Below, one piece after another: positions 34,254-41,066 of a stretch of 47,194 nt of DNA. This DNA comes from Phycisphaeraceae bacterium. GTDB lineage: Bacteria > Planctomycetota > Phycisphaerae > Phycisphaerales > Zrk34. The DNA is taken from assembly GCA_028277685.1 (NCBI GenBank), contig JANQFT010000499.1:1-47194 (forward strand), in the 5' to 3' direction. A model generated the notes under the pieces. That model did no database searches. It had not been told where the DNA came from and saw only the letters and a program-made list of their open reading frames with translations. A program made the position numbers and the translations under genes. How positions within the stretch are numbered: the stretch's first letter is position 1; the number at the start of each line of letters is the position of its first letter.

Positions 34254-34639
34254 GGATACTGAATAACCATCGTCGGCCTGGTAATTGTCCCAACATTAAC
34301 GCGAGACTGTTTGCCTGCCTGACCAAACCACAACTTTGTGCAGACATTGTGGGGATTGTTACGGACGTATTTGTGTTGTTATCGGCAGATTATGATTCAT
34401 AATGTGACTATTAATATGCCGCATCGGTCAATCAGGGGGACGGCAGCCAGCAGCACCCATTAGGAGGGTACTTCCGGGATGGGGCTGATTGGTGCTTCCG
34501 GGGACGGGGGTTTCCTAGAGAGCTTTGGGCAAGAGATTTGGGCGCTTTTTGTGCCTGGTTTGTGTGTTGGTTGATTGGCAACCCAGCACACAGGCGGGGA
34601 AATGTGACCTGGTGAATGCTCAAAGCAAGGAAAGAAAAG
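34254..34639. other. Divergent intergenic region upstream of the PEP-CTERM genes
   Basis: A 386-base spacer between the DprE1-like gene (minus) and the first PEP-CTERM gene (plus). It holds an AT-rich dyad, ATTATG (34389-34394) and CATAAT (34398-34403), and an imperfect direct repeat of the type GGTRCTTCCGGG at 34467-34484 and 34491-34509. The ribosome site AAGGAAAG just before 34640 belongs to the next gene. No clear gene is present; promoters for both operons are expected here. Confidence 0.45.
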
Positions 34640-35287
34640 ATGAAACGGTTGATGGTGATCTGTGCAGCATGTGCGCTGCTGTGTGTCAGTGGGCAGGCGT
34701 GGTCGGTCATTCTTACACCTGACTCCTTCGGCAATCTCGGTAACCTCCAGGCAGTGGGTAGCCCCACGGTCGATAATGTTTCGCACAGCAGTTCCGGCAC
34801 CACACTCAGTGCTACGGTGACCAGCCAGGCATTCGATGATCTGGATTCGGATGACTATGTCTATCTCTACCAGGTGGAAAACACCGGTGATCACGATATT
34901 CACCGCTTCACCATCTACCCGTTCGTCGGGGCCAACAGCAGTACCACCGTGGGCTACCTGACCGGAGGTGAACCGGCCGGTTTCGTGGCCGGCATCACGG
35001 CGCCGCTTGGAGCCAGCATTTCCACGACGCCGCCTCCAGGTGCAACGGTGGGCTTTCTGTATCTCGATCTCAGTTTCATGTCCGGCCCCAACGCCGTACT
35101 GTTGACCGGCCAGACCAGCAAGGTGATGTACATCATCAGCGATGCGCCGCCCACCATTGCCCAGGGTAATGTGATCAACGGCAACGTGGCCTACGGCGAT
35201 GTGGTCGCCCCGATTCCCGAGCCGGCCAGCTTGGTTCTGGTGAGTCTGGGTGCGGTGGCTGTCGTTCAACGCAAGCGTGGTGAATGA
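34640..35287 (+). CDS. PEP-CTERM secreted protein 1
   Basis: A 215-residue exported protein. A signal peptide (about 1-22, RLMVICAACALLCVSGQAWS) is followed by a beta-rich, Ser/Thr-rich domain with YLYQVENTGDHDIHRFTIY (about 76). The C-terminal sorting signal is IPEPASLVLVSL, a short hydrophobic helix and VVQRKRGE. The ATG at 34640 has AAGGAAAG before it; a start eight codons earlier lacks a signal-like N-terminus. No enzyme motif is visible. It is the first of four PEP-CTERM genes in a row. Confidence 0.87.
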   Translation: MKRLMVICAACALLCVSGQAWSVILTPDSFGNLGNLQAVGSPTVDNVSHSSSGTTLSATVTSQAFDDLDSDDYVYLYQVENTGDHDIHRFTIYPFVGANSSTTVGYLTGGEPAGFVAGITAPLGASISTTPPPGATVGFLYLDLSFMSGPNAVLLTGQTSKVMYIISDAPPTIAQGNVINGNVAYGDVVAPIPEPASLVLVSLGAVAVVQRKRGE

Positions 35288-35524
35288 GGAGGATCGATGG
35301 CATTATGGGAGGATATTCCGGGGACCTGCCATGGTCGCTTCACTGCGATCACGGCGGATTAAAGACAACCTGATCTAACGTCCGGCTGGTGTACGAGTAG
35401 AGATTGAAGACCACGGCGCACGGCAATGCGCCTATGGCCGGACGGTACGACATCAATATGAACCCGCATGGGTGCGCTACGAGCGCGCAAGGCGCCGCGC
35501 GATCATTGTGCTCACCATGCATGT

Positions 35525-35560
35525 AGATGGATTACCCAAACGATTGGGTAGCAGCCATCT
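35525..35560 (+). other. Two-part stem-loop upstream of PEP-CTERM gene 2
   Basis: An inner stem pairs TACCCAA (35533-35539) with TTGGGTA (35544-35550) around ACGA. An outer stem pairs AGATGG (35525-35530) with CCATCT (35555-35560), across a 2/4-base internal loop. Thirteen base pairs in 36 bases are unlikely by chance. It lies 86 bases before the start codon and could be a 5' leader structure or the end of the preceding transcript; no T run follows. The rest of the 359-base spacer (35288-35646) shows no gene. Confidence 0.45.
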
Positions 35561-35646
35561 GCTTTGTCCGAGGTGGGATCTGTAGCAGAGACAGGTGGGC
35601 TTCGTGGTGAGGCCCGACGGACATTCACCCTGGTTGGAGATCAGAC

Positions 35647-36741
35647 ATGACACGCAAGACTCATCTGCAAGTGATCGCAGGACTACTCGCCGCCTTAACA
35701 CTCAGCACCAGCGCTTTCGCCACGACACCCGCCCAGGCTGTACAGGCCGGGGCCGATCGCGTCGCGGAGGTGCAGCACACCGATGGAAAATGGGGTTGGC
35801 CACTGGTCGCTCCGCCCACATACAGCAATGTGGTTGGCCCGATCGGCCTGGGCCAAATTGATGCATACAAACTGACCAACGATGCAGACCATCTAGCCTC
35901 AGCAACCGCCGCGGGCGATGCACTGGTCGGGCTGACTGCCGACTGGGTAGGCTCGTACAACCCGCTGTTCCTCGTCGAGCTCAGTCAACTGACCGGCAAT
36001 AATGCTTACTTGAATCAAGCGCAGAATTTCTTCAGTCAACTCGACGCCGGCACGTACATGCGCAAGGGCACCCCCACCGACACTGCAGGTTTCATCAGCG
36101 CCGTTCAGGCCGGACGAAGTGGCACCTGGGTGAACCTGCTGCCATGGGATCTCGCTCCACTTGCCGCCGCTGCCGAAGTGGCCGGCACCACCGCACAGAA
36201 AGATGCTTTCGTGCAGGCGATGAAAGACGGCATCGATACGCTCGACAGCAGTTCCCCCTCATCCGTCTACAGCGACACACTCGGCCTGGCCGGTGGTGTG
36301 CTCGGACTGAATTGGCTGAACGAAGACCATGATCCGACCACCGGCAGTTTCGCCACCGCCAACAGCGTGGACGATATGGCCAACATGCTGGCTGCGCTTC
36401 AGAACGCCAACGGTTCGTGGAGCGGGCACAGCACAATCACCAACCCCTCCGCGGGTGATGAAGATTTGCAGATCACCGCTTACGCTGTCCTCGCGCTCGA
36501 CACTGCCAATGATGCCGGCCAGTATGACGATGAAATCATTTCCGCTCATCATTACCTGACCAGCATGCAGAACGTGGATGGCGGTTGGCCCTCCTACCCC
36601 GGTGGCGCGGAATACGCCGAGGTCGACGCCGAAGTGGTATGGGCACTCGCCGCCACGGCCGATGTCCCCGAACCGGCCACGCTTTCGGTGATGGCGCTGA
36701 TGGGACTGGCCACCCTGCGCCGGCGCTATCGCAGCATGTGA
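35647..36741 (+). CDS. PEP-CTERM secreted protein 2, alpha/alpha-toroid (prenyltransferase/squalene-cyclase-like)
   Basis: A 364-residue exported protein. The signal peptide spans about 1-25. The body is a series of helical repeats with the look of the terpenoid-cyclase/prenyltransferase toroid: VAEVQHTDGKWGWPL (about 40), AALQNANGSWSGHS (about 250) and SMQNVDGGWPSYPGG (about 310) are QW-like turns spaced through helical segments such as GQIDAYKLTNDADHL. The C-terminus is VPEPATLSVMAL, a hydrophobic helix and RRRYRSM. GGAGA lies six bases before the ATG. No cyclase DXDD motif is seen, so it more likely binds glycans or proteins at the cell surface than cyclises terpenes. Its tail is nearly identical in DNA to that of the gene at 37734. 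Confidence 0.87.
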   Translation: MTRKTHLQVIAGLLAALTLSTSAFATTPAQAVQAGADRVAEVQHTDGKWGWPLVAPPTYSNVVGPIGLGQIDAYKLTNDADHLASATAAGDALVGLTADWVGSYNPLFLVELSQLTGNNAYLNQAQNFFSQLDAGTYMRKGTPTDTAGFISAVQAGRSGTWVNLLPWDLAPLAAAAEVAGTTAQKDAFVQAMKDGIDTLDSSSPSSVYSDTLGLAGGVLGLNWLNEDHDPTTGSFATANSVDDMANMLAALQNANGSWSGHSTITNPSAGDEDLQITAYAVLALDTANDAGQYDDEIISAHHYLTSMQNVDGGWPSYPGGAEYAEVDAEVVWALAATADVPEPATLSVMALMGLATLRRRYRSM

Positions 36742-36782
36742 TTCAACAAACCGGCAGCACATCGCATCGGTGCGGTGTGCTG

Positions 36783-36803
36783 CTTTCTTTCTTTCTTTCT
36801 TTC
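36783..36803 (+). repeat. Tetranucleotide repeat (CTTT)5 in a 5' leader
   Basis: Five perfect CTTT units occupy 36783-36802, followed by one more C. They end 27 bases before the ATG of PEP-CTERM gene 3 and 12-18 bases before its ribosome site (AGGAG, 36819-36823). Repeats of this kind can slip in replication and alter promoter spacing or leader folding. Confidence 0.7.
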
Positions 36804-36830
36804 ACGACGCCTTGCAACAGGAGACTGAAC

Positions 36831-37667
36831 ATGAAGATGAACCAGAACAATGTCACGATTCTTGCCGTGGCCGGCATGCTGGTGCTGGTCTCCGGACTGA
36901 CCGTGGACGCATCCAACACCGTCTGGAATCAAGGTTTTGAGTCGGATACCAATGGTTGGCTCGATGAGAACAGCGGCTGGGCGGGCACGCTGACCCGTGT
37001 CGCTTCAGGAACTGGAACCCTTGGTGTGGTGTCCAAGTCAGGCTCGCACCACGCAGAGGCAACCCAGACGAACACCGTTGCAGTCGGGGGCACCAGAGGG
37101 CCATTCTCTCGTTTTGATGGTTACCGCGATACCTGGCCCGGTGGCATGACCGCCCAGATCGATGTGTATCTGGATACTTCGTGGGCGGCTGGTGAGGGAT
37201 TTGATTACAGCGTGGCCGCCAACGGGTCGGACAACAACCACGATCAGGATTTCATCTTCCACGTCACCCAGGACACTTCGACCGGCAGCCTGCTGGTCAG
37301 TGGAAGCAACAACACCAACTTCGATCCGCGTGAAGATCTGGAAAACCAGAATCACTATGTCGTCAACAGCAGTGGTTGGTACACCCTGCAACACGTGTTC
37401 ATGGAAGATGGCGATGGGTCGTTCTCCGTGGATATGAACCTGTTGGACAGCAGCGGTACCAAGGTGTTCACAGAGAATCGCCCGATTACCCACAACGGAA
37501 ACGATGTGACGCTCGCGCAACTGGGCGGCAACCGCTACGGCTGGTTCACGAACATCGATATCGCCAACGGTATCGCCATCGACAACCACACGCTGGAGGT
37601 CATCCCCGAACCGACGACGCTGGCGCTGCTGGCGGCGGGCGGCTTGGTGTGGTGGCGGAGACGGTAA
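36831..37667 (+). CDS. PEP-CTERM secreted protein 3
   Basis: A 278-residue exported protein. The N-terminus (about 1-28, ILAVAGMLVLVSGLTVDAS) is a signal peptide. The body begins TVWNQGFESDTNGWLDEN, the opening common to carbohydrate-binding-module-like jelly-roll domains in secreted proteins, and continues with GFDYSVAANGSDNNHDQDFI (about 123) and beta strands. It ends IPEPTTLALLAAGGLVWW and RRR. The ATG at 36831 is preceded by CAGGAG. It is downstream of a (CTTT)5 repeat. A role in binding surface glycan is plausible but not shown. Confidence 0.87.
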   Translation: MKMNQNNVTILAVAGMLVLVSGLTVDASNTVWNQGFESDTNGWLDENSGWAGTLTRVASGTGTLGVVSKSGSHHAEATQTNTVAVGGTRGPFSRFDGYRDTWPGGMTAQIDVYLDTSWAAGEGFDYSVAANGSDNNHDQDFIFHVTQDTSTGSLLVSGSNNTNFDPREDLENQNHYVVNSSGWYTLQHVFMEDGDGSFSVDMNLLDSSGTKVFTENRPITHNGNDVTLAQLGGNRYGWFTNIDIANGIAIDNHTLEVIPEPTTLALLAAGGLVWWRRR

Positions 37668-37733
37668 CGCCATCGAGAGAAGTGACTGAGGCAGCCTTCA
37701 CGATTCAGAAATTCACCATGAAGGAGAAACGCC

Positions 37734-38639
37734 ATGAAATGCTTCACGATAGCGCTGCTGCTGGTTCACGCCGCAGCCACAGCCGCCCTTGCGGCAAACG
37801 TAACGGGTGACCCGTCGGCCGATACCGGATGGGCGTTGGCCGGCCATTCCCTTGCCCAAGGCACCCACGCCAAGGGCAGCGCGAACTACGGCTACGACGC
37901 CTACGGCGCGGGCTTCGCGATCGCGGCCAACTCGAACCTGCAGATTACCGATACCAACGATACGTCACTGTCGTGGTTGGTCGGGGACACAGTCTTGGGT
38001 GTGGGGGGCAAATTTCGTTCCATCACCGCGGCCGAGGCTGGCTGGGCCAGCATCACGGGCGGCGCCATCAACGGCTTGTTGCCGACCACCTCGCCGCATA
38101 GCGGGCCGAAGCTGCAGGCCAAGTTCGGTACCAGTGATGCCACGTGGTACGCCAGCACGACCGCTCCCAACGGCGGCAACGGAAACAGCAGTTCCAGCAG
38201 TGGTGGTGGACGCGTGCAAGTGCGCAGTTCCGCCTACTTCCAGTCGGGCACACCTCACCCGGACCAGGAACTGAGCGCCCCGTGGACATGGGACGGCCAC
38301 TCCGGACAGGTGCTTGTTCTGGAAGAAGACGGGCACATCGCCTGGGACGGGCCCATCACACCGGACAAGCACGTGGCACGGATGATCTGGCAATGGGATA
38401 CCAACGCCAATCGCCTGTCCAGTTGGCAGCTGCTACTCAACGTATCGCTGCTAGAGCGGCTTGCCCCCGACAATTACAACGGGTTGTTCCCGGCGGTTGG
38501 CGATATGGCCGTGATGACCGTGCAGGACAACAACTCAAGCTACACCGATGCCCTGGTCACCACCGTCCCCGAACCGGCCACACTTTCGGTGATGGCGCTG
38601 ATGGGTCTGGCAACCCTGCGCCGACGCAAGCATCGCTGA
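37734..38639 (+). CDS. PEP-CTERM secreted protein 4
   Basis: A 301-residue exported protein. It has a signal peptide at about 1-20 (CFTIALLLVHAAATAALA) and a domain of unknown function rich in Gly, Ser and Thr, with a low-complexity NGGNGNSSSSSGGG stretch at about 144. TWDGHSGQVLVLEEDGHIAW follows at about 186. The sorting tail starts VPEPATLSVMAL and ends LRRRKHR. AAGGAG lies seven bases before the ATG. The tail coding DNA matches that of the gene at 35647 at 58 of 62 positions, with only synonymous changes. I do not recognise the body. Confidence 0.86.
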   Translation: MKCFTIALLLVHAAATAALAANVTGDPSADTGWALAGHSLAQGTHAKGSANYGYDAYGAGFAIAANSNLQITDTNDTSLSWLVGDTVLGVGGKFRSITAAEAGWASITGGAINGLLPTTSPHSGPKLQAKFGTSDATWYASTTAPNGGNGNSSSSSGGGRVQVRSSAYFQSGTPHPDQELSAPWTWDGHSGQVLVLEEDGHIAWDGPITPDKHVARMIWQWDTNANRLSSWQLLLNVSLLERLAPDNYNGLFPAVGDMAVMTVQDNNSSYTDALVTTVPEPATLSVMALMGLATLRRRKHR

Positions 38640-38663
38640 ATCCAAATGGGGACCTGCAACGCA

Positions 38664-38685
38664 ATGTGTCGGGAACCTGACACAT
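38664..38685 (+). other. Stem-loop between PEP-CTERM genes 4 and 5
   Basis: ATGTGTC (38664-38670) and GACACAT (38679-38685) pair around eight bases, 25 bases after the stop of the preceding gene. It could end or protect that transcript. No T run follows. Confidence 0.4.
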
Positions 38686-38738
38686 CAAGCCATATGCATA
38701 CGACATCCATCTGAACGGACGATGGAAGGAGAATTTCG

Positions 38739-39641
38739 ATGAAGGTCACAACCATCTCAATCGCGGCGCTAGCCTGCTTGGTGAGTACCGCATTCGCCAG
38801 TGAGTTCAACGGCCAATCAGACCATCAACGTGATGACCTGGGCTACTACTACATGATGACCGGTGGCCTGTTCCCTACCGGCACCACGCCCAACGGCGAC
38901 AACGCTTCCGGCGGCACGTTCCGTTTCCTCACCGATTCGCCCGATTGGGGTAGCTATCCCATGGGAACATGGAACAAGGACGACTGGTTCCCGGATAACG
39001 CCAGCTACGCCGTTACCCTCAAGAACAGCGGGAGCATTGTCTACGATAACAACGGCATCGAAACAGGCAACCACGGCACGTATTACGACGCTCAGGTCGA
39101 TCCCGGCCCAGCCACCAACGCCAACCCAAAAGATCAGGTTACCAGTGCCGATAAGCCCGGCCTCTACCGCGGCTACTCGATGTCCAACAACTTCGACTGG
39201 ATCTACGCCGGTTACTTCAAGCTGACTGAAGATACCACCATCGATACCGTCATCGGATACTACGATGAGAACTCAGGCTTCGATTCCAGTTCGCCGCTGA
39301 TCCAGTTCGATATGAACATCTGGTCCGCCGTGCAGGATAACCCCGCGGGCAATCCAAACAGTTGGATGCCTTCGGTGGCCAGTTTCACCGGCGACGTCTT
39401 GTCAGCCAAGTCCACCCCCGGCACGCTGGCATGGTCGGACACCGGCGTCGATCGCATTTTCGGTGATGACTTCAGCAACGCGCATGATGACATCTTCCGG
39501 CTGACCTTCGCGTTGGATACCCCGATGACCTTGCCTGCGGGAACCTACTTTTTCAGCCATGACGCGGAAATCATCCCCGAACCGGCCACCTGCACGCTGC
39601 TTGGTCTGGCGGGATTAGCCCTGCTGCATCGCAGGCGATAG
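38739..39641 (+). CDS. PEP-CTERM secreted protein 5
   Basis: A 300-residue exported protein. A signal peptide (about 1-20) is followed by a beta-rich domain abundant in Asp, Asn and aromatic residues, with GYYYMMTGGLFPTGTTPNGD (about 35) and FDWIYAGYFKLTEDTTIDTV (about 151). The tail is IPEPATCTLLGLAGLALL and HRRR. AAGGAG lies seven bases before the ATG. It is the last of the four-gene plus-strand run and is followed by an inverted repeat and the XylR-like regulator. The function is unknown; it is probably displayed or released at the cell surface. Confidence 0.87.
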   Translation: MKVTTISIAALACLVSTAFASEFNGQSDHQRDDLGYYYMMTGGLFPTGTTPNGDNASGGTFRFLTDSPDWGSYPMGTWNKDDWFPDNASYAVTLKNSGSIVYDNNGIETGNHGTYYDAQVDPGPATNANPKDQVTSADKPGLYRGYSMSNNFDWIYAGYFKLTEDTTIDTVIGYYDENSGFDSSSPLIQFDMNIWSAVQDNPAGNPNSWMPSVASFTGDVLSAKSTPGTLAWSDTGVDRIFGDDFSNAHDDIFRLTFALDTPMTLPAGTYFFSHDAEIIPEPATCTLLGLAGLALLHRRR

Positions 39642-39704: not shown

Positions 39705-39860
39705 GCATTTTCATAACGATTTAACGAATCTCACATTTGTTCATAATTCCCCCATTTACGTCCGCACACTGTTTTGCACTTGCCCGCTCAAGTGGGCCGA
39801 AGTAGCGTAACTTCAGAGTTGGAGCCGTTTCTGGGGCTTTTGAGTCGGGGGTGTTTCCCT

Positions 39861-41066
39861 GTGAAGTCTCCGTTAATCGGTGTGGGTTTACCGCGTTGGC
39901 GTGATGCAACCGTGCGGGTGTATGAAGGCATCATGGCTGCTGCAAGGCGGCACAATTGTCGTACACAATTACTGGGTTACTACCATCCTTCGCAGTTGCT
40001 GCAAAGGGTTGACGAAGTCGATCTGCAAGGCCTGATCCTCTTTGCTCCCCTTGAGATGGGCCAACGCATTGCCGAGAAGCTCAAACCTTCCTGTGCCACC
40101 GTCTCACTCACGCTGGAACTGGACCCACTCGGTTGGCCCACGGTTTGGCTGGATATCGATGCCGCGATGCGCGTGGCCGTGCGTCATCTGCGCCGTGTGG
40201 GATTTTCCCGCTTTGCCTTCGCCGGTTGGAGCGGCATACGCACCGGCGATCAATTCGCCAAAACATTCATTCAGGTCACGCATGACCAAGCGCCGATGTG
40301 GTCTGGCCCATATCCCTTCAACGCGGCCGACCTGGAAAACACCGAGCAAGCCATCCCCGTAGATCTGGCAAACTGGCTCAGCACGCTCGAACACCCGCTG
40401 GGTGTGGTGACTATGGATGAGCAGGTGTCCGCAAGCCTCACCCGGGCATGCGATCGTGCGGGCCTGAAGATTCCCCAAGATATCGGTGTGGTCAGCCTGT
40501 GTGACGACTTGCGTTGCGCCGCGGATGTGCCGCCGGTCACCGCGGTGGAGATGCCGTTCTTCGAGATGGGCGAGAACGCCGTCGAACAGATCGCGCGCAT
40601 GCTCAACGGCAACCAGCCTGATCGGATGACCACGTTGCCGGTGGACGATGTTATCGCACGCGCCTCCACCGGTATGGCCGACGATGAAGCCATCAGCCTG
40701 GCCGACGCCGTTCGCTTCATTAAGGAGCGCGCCTGCCACGGTGTCACCGTCGACGATGTGTTGCAACACGTGCACACCCTGTCGCGCACCAAACTGTACG
40801 AACTGTTCAATCAACGCGTGGGTCGATCACCCGCCACCGAAATTCGCCGTGTGCGGCTTGAACAGGCCTGCCGCCTGCTGCGCGAAACCCGCCACCCCGT
40901 TGCCGAAGTCGCCCGCCAAAGCGGCTTCGCCCATAGCCGACACTTCAGCACCATCTTCCATCACTACATGGGTATCACCCCCACCGCCTACCGCAGTCTT
41001 CCCGAGGATGAATGTGTTCACATCATGCCGCAGGTGGAGGCGAGCAAAATGTCGAATGACGAATAA
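39861..41066 (+). CDS. XylR-like transcriptional regulator (LacI-type sensor plus AraC HTH)
   Basis: A protein of about 401 residues with the XylR plan: an N-terminal periplasmic-binding-protein-like sugar sensor (about 1-270) fused to a C-terminal AraC-type double HTH (about 290-390). The sensor has IGVGLPRWRDATVRVYEGIM and IPQDIGVVSLCDD, the latter typical of LacI-type sensors. The HTH has RVRLEQACRLLRETRHPVAE and SGFAHSRHFSTIFHHYMG. The GTG at 39861 follows a G-rich ribosome site and gives the length of E. coli XylR. A TTG at 39774 would add 29 residues. With xylose-forming enzymes (UXS) and a beta-glucosidase in the window, a pentose or similar sugar is a likely ligand. Confidence 0.88.
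   Translation: MKSPLIGVGLPRWRDATVRVYEGIMAAARRHNCRTQLLGYYHPSQLLQRVDEVDLQGLILFAPLEMGQRIAEKLKPSCATVSLTLELDPLGWPTVWLDIDAAMRVAVRHLRRVGFSRFAFAGWSGIRTGDQFAKTFIQVTHDQAPMWSGPYPFNAADLENTEQAIPVDLANWLSTLEHPLGVVTMDEQVSASLTRACDRAGLKIPQDIGVVSLCDDLRCAADVPPVTAVEMPFFEMGENAVEQIARMLNGNQPDRMTTLPVDDVIARASTGMADDEAISLADAVRFIKERACHGVTVDDVLQHVHTLSRTKLYELFNQRVGRSPATEIRRVRLEQACRLLRETRHPVAEVARQSGFAHSRHFSTIFHHYMGITPTAYRSLPEDECVHIMPQVEASKMSNDE

Follow-up and report, generated by a model that had tools for sequence, protein, structure and literature searches.

How do two neighbouring genes with unrelated bodies come to end in the same 21 residues, written in almost the same DNA? The question is raised by a tandem array in a window of 47,194 nucleotides from a Phycisphaeraceae bacterium, where two genes, here called A and C, end in PEP-CTERM sorting tails. 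The original prediction for this locus was that the tails had been swapped or converted between the genes, so that the signal could reach new proteins as a cassette.

Two unrelated genes share a 63-bp PEP-CTERM tail

Positions 34616-39641 hold five tandem PEP-CTERM genes beside a polysaccharide-type cluster of glycosyltransferases and sugar-nucleotide enzymes (Table 1). After the array comes a gene (39774-41066) that resembles, by eye, an AraC/XylR-type regulator, and a short (CTTT)n run, tgctttctttctttctttctttc, lies just 3' of gene A at 36785-36803 as a possible slippage site. The body of gene A carries a weak signature of a squalene-cyclase/prenyltransferase-like alpha/alpha-toroid (Pfam SQHop_cyclase_N 1.5e-4, Prenyltrans 1.3e-3, all under curated cut-offs). 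On comparison, gene D proved to be a paralogue of neither B nor C.

Table 1. Genes, shared tails and neighbouring tail pairs in this genome. Positions without a contig handle are those of the window.
Feature	Position	Strand	Description
Gene 0	34616..35287	+	223 aa PEP-CTERM protein, upstream; tail only 0.49 identical to those of A and C
Gene A	35647..36741	+	364 aa; signal peptide-like N-terminus, alpha/alpha-toroid-like body, PEP-CTERM tail; likely recipient
Tail A	36664..36726	+	VPEPATLSVMALMGLATLRRR; 59/63 identical to tail C
Gene B	36831..37667	+	278 aa, between A and C; PEP-CTERM tail IPEPTTLALLAAGGLVWWRRR
Gene C	37734..38639	+	301 aa; body without known domain, PEP-CTERM tail; likely donor
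Tail C	38565..38627	+	21 residues equal to those of tail A
Gene D	38739..39641	+	300 aa PEP-CTERM protein, downstream
Neighbour pair C533	464/1144		tail identity at least 0.80; tail-edged tandem duplication at L102:1-1910
Neighbour pair C8	8826/9694		tail identity at least 0.80; tail-edged tandem duplication at L098:8148-10652
Neighbour pair C563	725/2035		tail identity at least 0.80; tail-edged tandem duplication at L039/L040
Neighbour pair C388	3376/5749		tail identity at least 0.80; tail-only match at L159:2599-5817

The tails of A and C have the layout of a PEP-CTERM signal, VPEP-ATLSVMALMGLATL-RRR, ending 3 to 4 residues from the protein end. In a PF07589 profile search they scored 22.9 and 22.8 bits, over the cut-off of 20.7, and by hmmscan 17.8 and 19.9 bits, under it; the PF07589 match of tail A is therefore borderline. 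Against TIGR02595 (cut-off 16) tail A scored 15.3 bits and tail C 17.9. The genome has 150 scored PEP-CTERM matches, all over the cut-off, and we collected 162 tails in all from the PF07589 search and fetched genome stretches. The same genome yielded one exosortase (PF09721, 8.1e-49, on contig C567). We take the A and C tails to be predicted surface-sorting signals and putative substrates for exosortase cleavage.

Both tails translate to the same sequence, with all 21 residues in common. Between 36664-36725 and 38565-38626, 58 of 62 bases are identical (59/63 with the last codon base included), and the mismatches, at offsets 18, 42, 48 and 60, all fall on synonymous third codon positions (ACG/ACA, GGA/GGT, GCC/GCA and CGG/CGA). 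The original prediction of one protein tail with only four synonymous differences is thus borne out, as is its claim that the gene bodies are unrelated: the best E value between them was 0.33 in one comparison, and a second gave no match. The tail of gene B, which lies between them, is unrelated in DNA to either (0.60 identity).

The shared stretch has a sharp 5' edge at the codon preceding PEP. Its 3' edge lies in or just past the codon for the third Arg, and a short, gapped match may extend from there to the stop. Alignment of the flanks against 200 shuffles found no similarity beyond the tail on either side; 41/200 shuffles were as good upstream and 116/200 downstream. Simulated flanks diverged by up to 30% always scored above the observed flanks. 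Since flanks diverged by up to about 30% would have been detectable, the absence of flank similarity indicates that some 63 bp were copied alone. A short stretch far more alike than the DNA on both sides of it is also what marks a gene-conversion tract.

Convergence and old duplication fit the match poorly

If the same tail had been selected independently in both proteins, biased codon use could have made the DNA alike. The layout common to all tails is constrained, their codon use is biased and one exosortase turned up in the genome, all of which would favour such convergence. We therefore looked at how unusual the A/C match is among the 12,880 tail pairs of this genome (162 tails). It ranks first by DNA identity, with the runner-up at 54/63 and a mean over all pairs of 0.56, and in 1000 column-wise codon shuffles the maximum reached was 55/63. 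With the protein held fixed, 17 identical codons were observed against 8.3 expected (P ~4e-5), and when codons are weighted by rarity the pair scores 51.4 bits (mean 6.9, SD 3.9).

The tail that A and C share is moreover atypical, its SVMALMG segment being absent from all other collected tails. The assembly holds no third DNA copy of it. Many equally identical tails with saturated synonymous sites would have told against exchange; no other pair in the genome is identical over 21/21 residues. The search for further near-identical tail DNA left A/C at the top, and pairs that lie far apart and agree at 18/21 residues or more (n=32) share only 0.51 of their codons. Neighbouring pairs at the same protein threshold (n=4) share 0.73, and A/C share 0.81. 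Convergence would also give no reason for the best matches to lie next to each other. This reading is largely refuted by the tests on codons and on neighbours, and we regard it as very unlikely.

A second alternative is that A and C descend from one gene duplicated whole, whose bodies diverged past recognition while the tail was conserved. The two do lie in one tandem array, and such arrays elsewhere in the genome hold true paralogues. When tails are set against bodies, however, the 27 pairs with homologous bodies (mean body identity 33%) have a mean tail identity of only 0.58, with a maximum of 0.73, essentially the background of 0.56. With the tails of body paralogues at background, constraint does not keep tails alike for longer than bodies, which argues strongly against A/C being an old whole-gene duplicate. 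Nor is there any body similarity between A, which is of the toroid family, and C, which belongs to another family with orthologues of its own. We consider this origin extremely unlikely.

Neighbouring genes share tails at four other loci

Tail pairs with an identity of at least 0.80 number 21 in this genome. Five of these are same-strand neighbours less than 3 kb apart, all with unrelated bodies (Table 1). In 20,000 permutations of tails over loci, at most three such neighbour pairs arose and none of the 20,000 reached five. By rarity-weighted score, the top three pairs are all neighbours.

At three of the other four loci (C533, C8 and C563), the genes are ordered X (tail 1), Y (tail 1') and Y' (tail 2, or cut by the contig end). 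Y and Y' have paralogous bodies (55, 50 and 33% identity respectively), and the tail of Y matches that of the unrelated X. DNA similarity begins in the tail of X and continues downstream into Y versus Y', placing the left edge of each tandem duplication in the PEP-CTERM tail of the upstream, unrelated gene. Read from the sequence, this arrangement is what an unequal crossover of tail 1 with tail 2 would be expected to produce. With three tandem duplications bounded on their left side by a shared tail, tails appear to serve as recombination sites as well. The fourth pair, at C388, is tail-only like A/C, with an identity of 0.81 and the third-highest rarity-weighted score; a non-PEP reading frame lies in between.

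All the tails also have in common a short conserved DNA core at PEP-A, present as CCCGAGCCGGC in 37/162 and as CCCGAACCGGC in 32/162, which could seed pairing. Elsewhere, at C41:1771-4400 (L076), a single open frame of 805 residues joins two PEP-CTERM proteins in head-to-tail order: the tail of the first runs without a stop into an apparent signal peptide of the second, through stop loss or an assembly error.

Relatives of A and C suggest C as the likely donor

In eight genomes of the same family, no orthologues of A or C were found. A class-wide search recovered orthologues of gene C in five further genomes, at identities from 67 down to 38%. In four of these a PEP-CTERM follows immediately on the same linker, of TDALVT type, and the fifth ends in a PEP-like IPLPTP tail. 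For gene A, another 23 genomes within the class have homologues, none more than 45% identical, and a collection scan gave more. Only 3/70 homologues of A, in scattered lineages, have a PEP-CTERM end as classed by simple patterns, with 22/70 running off the fetched DNA so that their ends are unseen. The remainder have IPTL-type, PxP-type or dockerin-like ends, other domains or nothing, or run off in this way. Across the toroid family (L232-L307) the C-terminal end thus varies by lineage, and on a tree PEP-CTERM requires four changes counting A, not clustered.

Since the orthologues of C are nearly all natively PEP-CTERM and the homologues of A mostly are not, C is the likelier donor. By parsimony, then, C was probably the donor and A the recipient, the nearest homologues of A being only 45% identical to it. 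The ancestor of A may already have had another PEP tail, which counts against this explanation.

Local recombination as the probable route

The near-identity of A and C is confined to the tail and has a sharp 5' edge, the bodies and flanks are unrelated, and the neighbour effect recurs at four other loci. The swapping or conversion of tails named in the original prediction is therefore well supported for these unrelated neighbours, whose tail-only match ranks first of 12,880. We consider it probable that the two PEP-CTERM neighbours, 1.9 kb apart, recombined locally and that one recently received a copy of the other's 63-bp tail, with short-tract, non-crossover gene conversion or a template switch as the likeliest form of the event. 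For the molecular route and its direction we infer that the conserved core at the 5' side of the tail, CCCGARCCGGC, would have primed the conversion, or a template switch during replication, and that tail DNA would have passed from C to A. A tract of 63 bp with four mismatches is short for RecA-dependent conversion, a point against this reading.

The closest rival reaches the same net outcome by two crossovers. First, the tails of C and A would cross over unequally and so duplicate the segment from A to C; a second tail-to-tail crossover would then delete the extra copy, leaving C (or A) with the tail of the other. The first step has a precedent in the same genome, in the duplications at C533, C8 and C563. 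At A/C, by contrast, no tandem duplication is edged inside the shared tail, there is neither an extra copy of B or C nor a shared downstream flank, and two events are needed where conversion needs one. We think this route rather unlikely.

Gene conversion and unequal crossing-over in tandem gene arrays are known to copy locally and directionally, with duplications edged in repeats. The A/C case differs from these in that the bodies are unrelated and only a functional tail of 63 bp is held in common.

Tail exchange is local and shows at most weak signs in relatives

The original prediction is upheld in part. Copying is supported, but a cassette by which new proteins gain the signal goes too far, exchange being local and without sign of a mobile element. 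Exchange is confined to same-strand genes less than 2.4 kb apart and is clear only in this genome. An element inserting sorting tails genome-wide would be expected to leave many dispersed copies with element-like ends, and none of this was found; the genome has only two copies of the A/C tail, and its matches are local. What might favour such an element comes from a genome of the same family (G003), where ten or more contigs start a short way upstream of dockerin-like plus PEP tails that are near-identical to one another and are followed by differing 3' flanks. There, however, the similarity extends into the coding region upstream of the tail, so that ordinary paralogy is possible. We judge a mobile cassette highly unlikely.

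In the G003 assembly, the first ~200 bases of contigs C25, C12, C38, C37, C1, C8, C21, C45, C32, C3 and C4 (L206-L216) carry this near-identical dockerin-like plus PEP-CTERM end. The contigs start ~75-125 bases upstream of it, and the tail DNA falls into two subtypes. It looks as though the assembly breaks where a gene end is repeated at dispersed sites; as the bodies are cut off at the contig ends, these contigs are a lead rather than proof.

In the parts of three relatives that were sampled, near non-homologous pairs had slightly raised mean tail identities of 0.61 v 0.59 (G003), 0.60 v 0.56 (G007) and 0.60 v 0.54 (G008). One neighbour pair in G008 (1415021/1416128) is suggestive, with a tail identity of 0.77, and no tail-only pair as strong as A/C was found in these samples. 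The signs of tail exchange in the three relatives are at most weak. Among tandem paralogues in relatives, the codon identity of the tails mostly equals that of the bodies (12 pairs; lowest P 0.022, uncorrected), which argues against any general tail conversion between tandem paralogues there.

Discussion

That PEP-CTERM spreads as a module is known at the protein level. Haft et al. 2006 (PMC1569441) described it as a module of roughly 24 residues appended to unrelated proteins, with tails more alike within than between species and gene sets that evolve rapidly. As in A and C, unrelated proteins there have a common tail module, but the paper offers no evidence at the level of DNA, whether edges, a neighbour effect or a mechanism, and recombination goes unmentioned in the passages searched. 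For GlyGly-CTERM, tails on otherwise unrelated proteins of one genome were argued to be homologous rather than convergent (PMC3237569). The argument is the same as ours, made for another tail and protease and from protein identity rather than synonymous sites or flanks. DUF3494 ice-binding proteins show domain shuffling, some with a PEP C-terminus (PMC9957290), and resemble A/C in having C-terminal PEP domains variably joined, as judged from architecture and not from junction DNA. A search of literature mostly from outside subscription journals found no paper joining PEP-CTERM with gene conversion, and otherwise protein-level statements only; a local DNA-level mechanism was not found in the literature searched. 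What is new here is DNA-level evidence for copying of the signal alone between unrelated neighbours, together with tandem duplications edged in the tail.

The sharing of a short C-terminal sorting signal by unrelated proteins has so far been argued from protein similarity only. The DNA at this locus appears to catch the step itself, a signal-only copy with its edges at the signal, and at three further loci a tandem duplication has its left edge inside the signal. More tentatively, and as a doubtful generalization, PEP-CTERM tail DNA may be a local recombination hot spot, whose core would let unrelated neighbours swap tails, seed tail-edged duplications and drive the turnover of exosortase substrates. 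Copying between A and C points to a route by which a new protein can acquire an export label. If general, this route would explain the quick turnover of sorting-signal gene sets, and synonymous sites together with neighbour flanks would offer a test for LPXTG, GlyGly-CTERM, MYXO-CTERM and similar tails.
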